A DNA stretch of 64,000 nucleotides, from NCBI RefSeq assembly GCF_950295315.1, contig NC_080171.1:111493593-111557592 (forward strand), given 5' to 3'. Below the pieces are notes generated by a model. The model had not been told where the DNA came from, did no database searches, and worked only from the letters and a program-made list of their open reading frames with translations. The DNA comes from Erinaceus europaeus. Taxonomy: Eukaryota > Chordata > Mammalia > Eulipotyphla > Erinaceidae. The translations under genes and the position numbers were made by a program. Positions 9,800-37,168 of this stretch are shown piece after piece. Numbering within the stretch: the first letter of the stretch is position 1; each line of letters starts with the position of its first letter.

Positions 9800-10175
9800 T
9801 TTCTTTCTTTTTTTAGATGCTTAATTTTGTTGTTTCGAGTTTTTATCTTATTTTATTTTTTGCCTACAGGGTTATTACTGGAATTCCATGTTGACACTAC
9901 AACTCCATGGCTCCTGGCAGCCATTTTTTCCCCCATTTTATTGCATAAGACAGAGAGAAATTGAGAGGAGAGGGGTGGGGAGATAGAGAGGGAGAGAAAA
10001 AGACACTTGCAAACCTGCATCGCTGCTTGTGAAGCATCTTCCCAGCAGATGGGGAGTTGGTGGGTTGAACACGGATCTTTGACTTAGTACTGTGTATACT
10101 TAGTACTGTGTATACTTAGTACTGTGTATACTTAGTACTGTGTATACTTAACCAGTTGCACCACTGCCTTGTCTC
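9800..10175 (-). mobile_element. SINE-A type, long form, expanded by a minisatellite
   Basis: It has the 3' module (GGGTTATTACTGGAATTCC to CTCCTGGCAGCC), AGACAGAGAGAAATTGAGAG and a body, then a head interrupted by a 4x16-bp tandem repeat before CTTAACCAGTTGCACCACTG. Confidence 0.85.
10083..10146. repeat. Perfect 4 x 16-bp tandem repeat inside a SINE head
   Basis: CTTAGTACTGTGTATA is repeated exactly four times with no mismatch. It lies where the tRNA-like head of the surrounding minus-strand SINE should be, between the box B region and the 5' end, so it is an in-element expansion. Confidence 0.97.
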
Positions 10176-32148: not shown

Positions 32149-32466
32149 TGGCTTAAGCGCACGTGGTGTGAAGCACAAGGACCAGCATTAGGATCCCGGT
32201 TCAAGCCCCTGGCTCCCACCTGCAGGGGAGTGGCTTCACAGGCAGTGAAGCAGGTCTGCAGGTGTCTGTCTTTCTCTCCCCTTCTTTGTCTCCCCTCCCC
32301 TCTTGATTTCTCTCTGTCCTATCCAATGACAGCAACAACAACAACAATAATAATAACCATAACAATGATAAAATAAGGGCAACAAAAGGGGAAAAAATGG
32401 TATCCAGGAGCAGTGGATTCGTGGTGCAGGCAGGAGCCCTGGCAATAACCTTGGAGGCAAAAAAAA
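32149..32466 (+). mobile_element. SINE-A1, long form, nested
   Basis: AGAAAGGGAAAGAGA at 32134-32148 and 32467-32481 is a perfect 15-base target duplication. The head is truncated to TGGCTTAAGCGCACG, so box A is incomplete, while box B (GGTTCAAGCCC) is present. The 3' module ends CCTTGGAGGC before an A run. Confidence 0.92.
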
Positions 32467-32518
32467 AGAAAGGGAAAGAGAAAGAGAAAGCGACATCTGC
32501 TACACTCCTTTAGTACTC

Positions 32519-33329
32519 TATCTTGGCGTTACTCTCGATCGCACTCTGTCATTTCACGAACATCTCATAAAAACTGCAGCAAAGGTGGGCGCGAGGAATC
32601 ACATCATTGCAAGACTGGCCAGCTCCTCATGGGGCGCAAGCGCTTCCACACTACGATCATCTTCTCTGGCATTATGCTATTCCACTGCAGAATACTGTGC
32701 CCCAGTATGGTTCCGTAGCCCCCATGTCCACTTGGTTGATTCCAAATTATATTCCTCCATGAGGATAATTTCTGGAACCATCCGTTCCACCCAGGTCCCA
32801 TGGCTGCCAGTTCTTAGCAACATGGCCCCGCCAGATATTCGTTGGGGTGCGGCATCATCTAAGTTCATTTCCCACGTCTACGCTCGACCGGACCTGCCAA
32901 TATACGCGGATATCTTTGCCCACCCTGTCCAACGCTTGACATCTCGTCACCCAATCTAGTCCCCTACGCCTACACTGAACTTCTCTGTTCCAAACTCTTG
33001 GAAACAGAGTTGGCAGTCAGCTGAGGTAAAGAACAAACACCTCATCACAGACCCCTGCAAGCGTCAACCCGGCTTTGACCTAGCACATTATGATTGGGCC
33101 CTCCTCAATCGCTATCGAACAGGCCATGGCCGGTGCGCAGCTATGTTCCATCGCTGGGGAGCCAGAGACTACCCGAACTGCTCCTGCGGCTCCAGACAGA
33201 CTATGACCCACATAGTCAACGACTGCCACCTCTCCAGATTCAAAGGAGGTTTCGAAACCTTACATCAGGCTCAACCAGACGCTGTTGACTGGCTACGGAA
33301 GAAGGGCAAACGCTAGAAGAAGAAGAAGA
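32519..33329 (+). mobile_element. Non-L1 LINE fragment (C-terminal part of a reverse transcriptase polyprotein)
   Basis: This 811-bp insert is flanked by AGTACTC at 32512-32518 and 33330-33336. One frame stays open from the first base to a TAG at 33314-33316 except for a single in-frame TAG at 32957-32959; there is no frameshift over about 265 codons. The product begins YLGVTLDRTLSFHEHL, a motif following the RT core in APE-type LINEs, continues with ALCYSTAEYCAPVW and NKHLITDP, and ends with a Cys/His motif (CSCG at 33179-33190, His at 33209, Cys at 33224). The stop is followed at once by (AAG)n, so the 3' UTR is almost nil. Base composition is GC-rich with many CpGs, unlike the surroundings. 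From memory this type resembles jockey/CR1-like proteins from arthropods such as ticks; it is clearly not L1. The clade is not resolved. Confidence 0.85.
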
Positions 33330-33432
33330 AGTACTCCTGAAGTTTCCTCCTGCAGATGGGGACTGTGGACTTGAACCTGGGTCCTTGTGCATGATAATGT
33401 ATGTGTTCTAGCTTGTGCAGCAAGGCCTAGCC

Positions 33433-34410: not shown

Positions 34411-34556
34411 AGTAATTTTTTCTCACATCAGCAATAAACATATTCAAAACAAAAAATTAGATTATCAAATGTATCAAGTGTGTGGAAATGATCAAATGCT
34501 TGGAAATAAATCTAATAAAACGAATACATGATCCTTACTCTAAAAACAGAAACAAT
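34411..34556 (+). repeat. 146-bp direct repeat, left copy (target duplication of L1)
   Basis: It is identical to 37169-37314 except for one base (GGAAATGATC here, GGAAATTATC there). The sequence itself looks like degraded L1 ORF2 (CTTGGAAATAAATCTAATAAAA), so the younger L1 landed in an older one. Confidence 0.95.
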
Positions 34557-35819
34557 TGCCAAAACCATCTTAAGGAAAAGAAACAGAAATGGAGGCATCA
34601 GACTCCCAGACCTTAAACTATATTATAAAGCCATCATCATCAAAATAGCATGGTACTGGTACAAAAATAGTCACACAGACCAGTGGAACAGAATTGAAAG
34701 CCCAGAAATAAATCCCCACACCTACAGACATCTAATCTTTGATAAGGGGGCCCAAATGATTAAATGGAAGAAGAAGAAGGCTCTCTTCAATAAATGGTGC
34801 TGGGAAAACTGGGTTGTAACATGCAGAAGAATGAAATTGAACCATTTTATCTCACCAGAAACAAAAATCAACTCCAAATGGATCATAGACCTAGATGTCA
34901 GACCAGAAACAATCAAATACTTAGAGGAAAACATTGGTAAAACAGTTTCCCACCTACACCTCAAGGACATCTTTGATGAATCAAACCCAGTTGCAAGGAA
35001 GACTAAAGCAGAAATAAACCAATGGGACTACATCAAATTGAAAAGCTTCTGCACATCCAAAGAAACTATTAAACAAACAAAGAGACCCCTCACAGAATGG
35101 GAGAAGATCTTCACATGCCATACATCAGACAAGAAACTAATCACCAAAATATATAAAGAGCTCAGCAAACTTAGCACCAAAAAAGCAAATGACCCCATCC
35201 AAAAATGGGCAGAGGATATGAACAAAACATTCACTACAGAGGAGATCCAAAAGGCTAACAAACATATGAAAAACTGCTCCAGGTGACTGATTGTCAGAGA
35301 AATGCAAATTAAGACAACACTAAGATACCACCTCACTCCTGTAAGAATGGCATACATCAAAAAGGACAGCAGAAACAAATGCTGGAGAGGTTGTGGGGAC
35401 AGAGGAACCCTTTTACATTGCTGGTGGGAATGTAAATTGGTCCAGCCTCTGTGGAGAGCAGTCTGGAAAACTCTCAGAAGGCTAGACATAGACCTTCCAT
35501 ATGATCCAGTAATTCCTCTCCTGGGTTATACCCCAAGGACTCCATAACACCCAACCAAAAAGAGGTGTGTACTCCTATGTTCATAGCAGCACAATTCATA
35601 ATAGCTAAAATCTGGAAGCAACCCAGGTGCCCAACACCAGATGAGTGGCTGAGAAAGCTGTGGTATATATACACAATGGAATACTATGCAGCTATCAAGA
35701 ACAATGAGCCCACCTTCTCTGACCCATCTTGGACAGAGCTAGAAGGAATTATGTTAAGTGAGCTAAGTCAGAAAGATAAAGATGAGTATGGGATGATCCC
35801 ACTCATCAACAGAAGTTGA
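34557..35819 (+). pseudogene. L1 ORF2 C-terminal remnant
   Basis: It encodes about 420 codons of the ORF2 protein beyond the RT core: AWYWYKN and DQWNRIES early, [35 protein letters not shown], then the cysteine-rich stretch [18 protein letters not shown] and finally YIYTMEYYAAIKNNE. Two lesions are visible: an in-frame TGA at 35284-35286, and a one-base deletion at about 35534-35537 that moves the end of the protein to another frame until the TGA at 35817-35819. Endonuclease and RT domains are absent, so it cannot act autonomously. Confidence 0.92.
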
Positions 35820-37168
35820 GGAAGAAGATCTGAAAGGGAAACGAAAAGCAGGACCTGACCAAATTGTAACCAGGGCACCAAAGTAATAACCCTGAGGCGA
35901 TGGGTAGACATGCAGCTTCCTGGGACAGTGGGAGGTGGGAGTGGGTGGGAGGGATGGGTCACAGTCTTTTGGTGGTGGGAATGGTGTTTATGTACACTCC
36001 TAGTAAAATGTAGTCATATACATCACTAGTTAATACGAGAGGGGGAAATTTAATTGTATGTCTTGAAGTTTTTCAAAACACAAACTGAATCTTTTCTCAA
36101 TATATGCAGTGTAATTGATATGCAGACTCTCTCAAAAGCCTAGACCAAGTAGATCAGAAGCAACCAATAGCACAGCTATATACAAGATACTGGGTACTGT
36201 ACAGCAAACCCTAACAAAAGGACTTTTCAAAATTAACTCAATTACCAAATAATGTGATGATAACATTAACTATAGATTGTCTTTTGGAACCCTAAGACAG
36301 CAGGAACCTCACATCTCCACTATAGAGCCTCTACTTCCCCCAGTCCTGGAACCATTGGATAGGGCCCACTTTCCCGTATGCCTCTCCCAATCCATATCAA
36401 ATAATATTGCATCTGCCGATCACAACCTAACCAACACAACGATTGCCACCTCGACATGCTTCACTTCAGACTGTGTCCAGAGACTACACATGTGGAATGA
36501 CAACCCTTCAGCTTCATTACTCAGGTGAGACCTTTCCTTTCATAGTATACTCTAATTCCATCCCAGGTGGTTCACTTTCTAACAAAGTCCCAAAACCTAG
36601 ATATACACCAGTTTCTGTGAGAGAGAGCATATGTTCATACGTATCCGTAAACTACTGCAAAATATATACCTGAAAGCAGAAGTACACTAGAGTTTGCAGT
36701 GAGTACCCCCCTAACACTTCCTCTCCACTATTCCAAGCTTTGGGTCCATGATTGCTCAACAATTTGTTTGGCTTCGTATGTTAACTCTCTTTTCAGTCAC
36801 CAGGTTCCAGATGTCATCAGGATGCCGGCCAGGCTTCCCTGGACTGAAGACCCCACCAATGTGTCTTGGAGCTCCGCTTCCCCAGAGACCAACCCTACTA
36901 GGGAAAGAGAGGCAGACTGGGAGTATGGACCGACCATTCAACGCCCATGTTCAGCAGGGAAGCAATTACAAAGCCAGACCTTCTACCTCCTGCAACCCAC
37001 AATGACCCTGGGTCCATGCTCCCAGGGGGATAGAGAATGGGAAAGCTATCAGGGGATGGGGTGGGATATGGAGAATGGGTGATGGGAATTGTGTGGAATT
37101 GTACCCCTCCTAACCTATGGTTTTGTTAATTAATACTTTCTTAAATAAAAAAAATTCTAAAAAAAAAA
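34557..37168 (+). mobile_element. 5'-truncated L1, 2.6 kb, with complete 3' UTR
   Basis: It starts within the C-terminal third of ORF2, ends ORF2 at 35819, then has a ~1.34-kb 3' UTR and an A-rich tail ending at about 37168. Late 3' UTR landmarks (CTGGGAGTATGGACCGACC, GAATTGTGTGGAATTGTACC) match other L1 ends in the window, making this the best local reference for that 3' UTR. The flanking 146-bp repeat marks the insertion. Confidence 0.93.

Follow-up and report, generated by a model that had tools for sequence, protein, structure and literature searches.

HDV-like ribozymes fold as a nested double pseudoknot of helices P1, P2, P3 and P4, completed by a CNRA motif in J4/2. Their cleavage site is described as the first base of P1 (PMC4908430), and R2, R4 and RTE elements are reported to carry such ribozymes at their 5′ ends (PMC3774820). 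For R2, self-cleavage sets the 5′ end of the RNA, and extra non-templated bases are found at insertion junctions (PMC3774820). The trypanosomatid L1Tc/ingi elements begin with the Pr77 HDV-like ribozyme, which cuts on the 5′ side of base +1 (PMC4035085). In mammals, one text maps HDV-like ribozymes to CPEB3 (PMC4908430), and a self-cleaving ribozyme described as twister-sister-like has been proposed for human LINE-1 (PMC11620745).

That hedgehogs harbor Vingi retrotransposons has been known since 2011, and a horizontal-transfer reading of their presence is in print. The clade is defined by a single open reading frame (ORF) that encodes an endonuclease (EN) and a reverse transcriptase (RT) with no RNase H, a domain present in Ingi and absent in Vingi, and these non-LTR retrotransposons, those of hedgehogs included, were reportedly published by Kojima, Kapitonov and Jurka in 2011. 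One source gives Vingi as known from hedgehogs and reptiles and, by a cited title, as an Ingi-related clade (PMC5753468); a 2011 paper regards Vingi in hedgehogs as likely horizontal transfer and counts 311 copies of Vingi-1N3_EE at <1% divergence (PMC3183009). A 2025 study of Atelerix albiventris, which does not call them Vingi, reports 4,476 'I-Jockey' copies over 2.2 Mb (PMC12026660).

The stretch analyzed here, which we call the window, comprises 64,000 nucleotides of Erinaceus europaeus DNA and contains an insert that is an ordinary truncated copy of a hedgehog LINE family that is likely a known one. Like hedgehog Vingi-1, the window family is a recently expanded non-L1 LINE in a hedgehog-type host, and as for Vingi it encodes EN and RT with no RNase H match. 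What appears to be new, judging from the sequence, is a predicted HDV-like ribozyme at the 5′ end of the LINE; in the literature searched, which does not extend to Kojima et al. 2011, we found no mention of Vingi and a ribozyme together, and a search for Erinaceus and ribozyme found only papers unrelated by their titles and the openings of their abstracts. As with L1Tc/ingi, the ribozyme stands at the 5′ end of the element, measured in trypanosomatids and predicted in the hedgehog LINE, although the host and the sequence are different. A resemblance to R2 may lie in extra junction bases, if that is what the T before base 1 of the hedgehog element represents, whereas R2 inserts into 28S rDNA and the hedgehog LINE inserts at scattered sites. 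The CPEB3 ribozyme likewise has an HDV-like fold in a mammal, but it belongs to one gene and not to a mobile family with 1,156 first-look 5′-end candidates. The human LINE-1 proposal also places a self-cleaving RNA on a mammalian LINE, in that case twister-sister-like by description, in contrast to the HDV-like prediction made here.

Results

A truncated LINE inside an older SINE

The insert and its immediate surroundings have the following parts (positions are those of the window):

32467..32511, minus strand: left part of the older target SINE, from SINE alignments
32512..32518, plus strand: 5′ copy of the target-site duplication AGTACTC, from the duplication test
32519..33329, plus strand: 5′-truncated, likely Vingi-type LINE copy of 811 bp, about the last quarter of a ~3.07-kb element
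32519..33316, plus strand: C-terminal part of the single EN-RT open frame, downstream of the RT active site
33317..33329, plus strand: (AAG)n tail abutting the stop codon, with no 3′ UTR
33330..33336, plus strand: 3′ copy of AGTACTC, the first AG of which is possibly tail
33337..33410, minus strand: right part of the same older SINE, from SINE alignments

The initial annotation had described an 811-bp insert bounded by an AGTACTC duplication, open in one frame apart from a single nonsense codon, free of frameshifts and ending in a stop codon followed by (AAG)n, and we found the coordinates, the repeats and the frame as it gave them. Frame 1 runs from 32519 up to the terminal TAG (33314-33316), interrupted by a single stop at 32957-32959, and the tail AAGAAGAAGAAGA follows the TAG directly. 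The AG in the 3′ copy may equally belong to the tail, so that the duplication measures 5-7 bp. The three protein motifs that the annotation quoted are present in this frame, the C-terminal region of which also carries a Cys/His motif, CSCG...H...C. The high GC and many CpGs that it had noted in an AT-rich region are reflected in a GC content of ~0.51-0.53 for the insert versus 0.38 for the window and in CpG observed/expected ratios of 0.71 versus 0.18. It had also placed the insert in a SINE as a later arrival, and we agree that the insert is younger than its target, since 27 of 33 HSPs between the empty site, made by joining the flanks, and other SINE copies extend across the junction. Pfam gave no match for two window pieces of the insert frame taken alone, nor did Rfam for the 64-kb window at the gathering threshold. 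There is no second copy of the insert within the window, where its remaining matches are to AAG microsatellites or are short and due to chance.

A second tRNA-type SINE in opposite orientation (32185-32460) adjoins the target SINE on the left, and the arms 32185-32226 and 33349-33390 show 74% complementarity. A 255-residue open frame at 34519-35286 resembles, as we take it, the end of L1 ORF2, so that an L1 presumably inserted nearby too. The top row of the window self-comparison is a 487-bp repeat pair (609-1095 and 36672-37155, 94% identity), and a 16-base unit is perfectly repeated in tandem, in 4.3 copies, at 10082-10150.

A large and young family

The last 798 bases of the insert returned 5,255 first-look candidates from the hedgehog's own 2.72-Gb genome; 40 of these were scored, the window copy among them, and all match the query end to end, the others at ~97%. 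For counting copies we used a CpG-free 27-base piece near the 3′ end of the element, the reversed form of which gave 0 matches every time. This probe has 19,261 exact matches in the genome, 24,712 with ≤2 mismatches and 25,064 with ≤3, only 352 of which carry exactly three. Arithmetic from these counts puts the mean family divergence at ~1% per site and leaves no old bulk of copies, because at most ~3,000 3′-end copies could be 20% diverged. Twenty copies, which are not a random sample since they come from the 40 sequences that match the window copy best, show 7-12 differences from their majority over ~798 sites. The window copy differs from the same majority at 19 of 798 sites, or at 9 when the 704 non-CpG sites are considered, and at a rate of 2-5e-9 per site and year it would be a few million years old. 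The family is large and young, with copies ~1-2% diverged and no old bulk. Two other identities for the insert were rejected, an old L2/CR1 copy on account of this divergence and a pseudogene or host exon on account of the thousands of copies.

Copy anatomy

Family copies share their 3′ terminus, the stop codon followed by (AAG)n, and differ in where they start, with lengths of 820-2,708 bases in 20 fetched copies. Target duplications of ≥7 bp are present in 15 of 21 copies (window copy included) versus 5 of 420 random starts and hence are not due to chance; they measure 7-12 bp in most copies tested. None of ≥7 bp was found in the other six, one of which, L015, gave 11 bases in a looser test. 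A 601-base query from the middle of the element yielded 818 first-look candidates, as opposed to 5,255 for the 798-base 3′ end. In at least 4 of 12 copies picked by the middle (L034, L038, L039 and L045), a 3′ part is attached to the 5′ part in reverse orientation, and 5′ inversion is known from L1 twin priming. Target-site duplications, 3′-anchored copies with variable 5′ truncation and a simple tail characterize the family as a LINE, and the duplications, the truncation, the 5′ inversions and the 3′-end excess together make target-primed reverse transcription a fitting mode of insertion.

Encoded protein and class

The EN-RT ORF starts at element base 92, 91 bases preceding the start codon, and the whole element is estimated at ~3.07 kb from spacing on two copies, L040 and L042. 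Copy L040 has a 916-residue open frame (P0253) with EN at 30-211 and RT at 492-635 (PF03372/PF14529 and PF00078), and both domains are likewise found, in pieces, in L027. In L040 (48-2795) both ends are present and the one frame is kept, and part of the RT active site, with its motif, has been lost through an internal deletion; this form is possibly non-autonomous. Neither the hedgehog pieces nor the relatives P0121, P0123 and P0154 matched an RNase H family up to E 1. An endonuclease followed by RT in one protein is the arrangement of LINEs of the APE-endonuclease type. L1 elements have two ORFs and a poly(A) tail, and L1 was rejected, as an EN-RT ORF from base 92 leaves no room for a preceding ORF and the tail is (AAG)n. 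The domain order, the tail and the low divergence of the copies bear out the earlier description of a young non-L1 LINE. With its single ORF, EN and RT and no RNase H match, the family is likely the Vingi type published from hedgehogs, a name that rests on host, domain make-up and literature. The 'I-Jockey' copies of Atelerix albiventris would be the same family.

The 5′ boundary of full-length copies

Full-length copies elsewhere in the genome have a common 5′ end that starts GGGATGC. A query beginning at element base 1 found 1,156 first-look candidates, and 20 junctions (L046-L065) were cut from the 40 best matches. The first base is the same G in 19 of the 20, the remaining copy being two bases shorter; upstream, the flanks are unrelated, and no column from -20 to -2 exceeds 0.36 bits, which is close to random (20 junctions). 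At base -1, a T is present in 13 of the 20 junctions, and in L040 one extra T lies between a 7-base duplication, ATGTTAG, and the element G. This T is perhaps an untemplated base. In a less selected check, we took 12 places chosen by the EN/RT (middle) part of the element, three of which (L038, L039 and L040) reach base 1; a fourth, L030/L041, stops no more than a few bases short of it. Beyond base 1, middle-chosen copies share only chance stretches of <~10 bases or inverted element pieces.

A predicted ribozyme at base 1

In the predicted fold of the first 70 bases, P1 pairs 1-7 with 30-36 and is followed by a 3-base spacer, P2 pairs 11-16 with 65-70, and P3 (17-19 with 27-29) directly adjoins P1 and encloses an L3 of UUCCCGU. 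P4 pairs 44-47 with 53-56, and CUGA, a CNRA in the J4/2 position, precedes the second strand of P2. This layout (a 7-bp P1 from G1, P2, a 3-bp P3, P4 and C-N-R-A) is found in 19 of the 20 selected copies, with all 20 pairs and the CNRA kept, and in 2 of 4 less selected ones; conservation among the 20 junctions is expected, because similarity to the L040 5′ end was the basis of their selection. The predicted cleavage position coincides, as a position only, with the element 5′ end in 19 of 20 junctions.

A strict descriptor of the fold, written post hoc after the sequence had been inspected and without a known ribozyme as positive control, matched L039 and L040 exactly at base 1. Elsewhere in the 487 kb of sequence fetched (both strands, overlapping loci) it matched once, and on the two strands of the real window (128 kb) it gave 0 matches. 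With P4 left out, it matched 13 times in 16 Mb of random sequence with a ribozyme-like base composition and 6 times in 16 Mb with that of the window, a background of about once per Mb or less. Single-strand folds compared with shuffles gave z values of -0.63, no better than shuffles, and -2.85, from a program that cannot draw the pseudoknot.

It is conceivable that the 5′ sequence is a conserved promoter or untranslated leader that fits the descriptor by chance, and several observations are of the kind that such a sequence would produce. The Rfam HDV families gave no match to the 5′ end at E≤10, the descriptor is post hoc, and the selected copies are nearly identical, with a single G-U to G-C change, in L058, which leaves too little variation for covariation. 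Of the four less selected 5′ ends, L039 and L040 match the fold, and L038 and L041 have changes in several stems that break it. Against a background of about one match per Mb or less, however, the fold starts on the very first base of the element, every pair is kept in 19 of 20 near-complete 5′ ends, and elements of the Ingi clade have active ribozymes at the same place (PMC4035085). We therefore regard a chance fit as improbable and prefer an HDV-like ribozyme.

Relatives of the protein

Relatives were drawn from three lists, the best 120 each of 1,219, 1,271 and 326 matches. The closest of those listed, P0001 (97% identical), is from a 2,072-bp ENA metagenome contig and is likely hedgehog DNA in a metagenome sample. 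The others are ≤63% identical, the closest full-length ones 56-60%, and many of them, within the best 120 of the 1,219 and 1,271 matches, are full-length EN-RT proteins of ~1,000 residues. Arthropod relatives in the best 120 lists show 45-49% identity. Neither a tick nor a mammalian intermediate is named among the best 120 of each list, though repeat-masked genomes may hide the latter, and P0121 as a query found no relative in viral or genome contigs.

In a tree of 48 hand-picked rows, rooted at the midpoint only and composed mostly of metagenome proteins with no species name, the hedgehog rows join five rows without a species name (100/98) within a 34-row group (100/100) that also holds three eel rows, one coelacanth row and one turtle row. 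Across the 100/100 branch are a sand fly row, a planthopper row, a beetle row and two pseudoscorpion rows. None of the named relatives in the tree carries the label Vingi. The hedgehog rows sit on a long stem (0.5-0.6), by which the donor, if any, is unsampled; the best listed non-hedgehog identity is ~60%.

Discussion

We consider it very probable that the insert derives from a young LINE, likely Vingi, as a 5′-truncated copy placed in an older SINE by what would be target-primed reverse transcription, and that full-length copies of this LINE start with a predicted HDV-like ribozyme. The element RNA would be made within a longer transcript or from an internal promoter, and the predicted ribozyme would cut it just before base 1, setting the 5′ end of the element. 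The ~990-residue protein would then nick the target DNA, and cDNA synthesis would be primed at the (AAG)n tail. Synthesis would usually stop early, leaving short copies like the window insert.

How the element reached hedgehogs can be read in more than one way. The horizontal transfer suggested by the initial annotation is plausible but not new, having been put in print before (PMC3183009). Vertical descent would have Vingi pass from an amniote ancestor, survive at a low level in the hedgehog line, disappear from other placentals and undergo a recent burst. We find this unlikely, but it has points in its favor: Vingi relics are listed in the human genome as X12_LINE (PMC5753468), one pre-amniote Vingi fossil is on record (PMC9004415), a turtle relative lies in the same half of the tree as the hedgehog, and slow survival at a low level would leave few old copies. 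It has to accommodate the scarcity of 3′-end matches with exactly three mismatches (352 of 25,064, with no old bulk), the length of the hedgehog stem (0.5-0.6), and a mammalian intermediate being named nowhere in the best 120 of each protein list, with the proviso on repeat masking given above. Far less credible is the tick or other parasite route that was also raised at the outset, by which an arthropod would have carried the element into hedgehogs. Arthropods do have relatives at 45-49% identity, and there is a general precedent in the nematode RTE of the common shrew (PMC6542046); against this, the tree separates the five named arthropod rows from the hedgehog by a 100/100 branch and groups five named vertebrate rows with it, and the three lists of best 120 name no tick. 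Since most tree rows are metagenome proteins that bear no species name, the parasite route keeps a small probability. On balance we think it more likely than not that the element entered hedgehogs by horizontal transfer, from a source as yet unsampled.

It is probable, in our judgment, that a mammal carries a young and mobile family of HDV-like ribozymes, that full-length hedgehog Vingi copies start at the ribozyme cleavage site, and that the ribozyme spread and arrived together with its LINE, probably horizontally. If this is true, it would add to the single CPEB3 gene the first HDV-like ribozyme that is mobile in a mammal, and it would link the ribozyme to an ancestry shared by the Ingi and Vingi clades. 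The predicted ribozyme offers a concrete answer to how a LINE this compact, whose start codon is preceded by 91 bases, would fix its own 5′ end in a mammal, and it provides an RNA marker for tracing the source of the element. A mammalian genome would also have been seeded with many self-cleaving RNA motifs.
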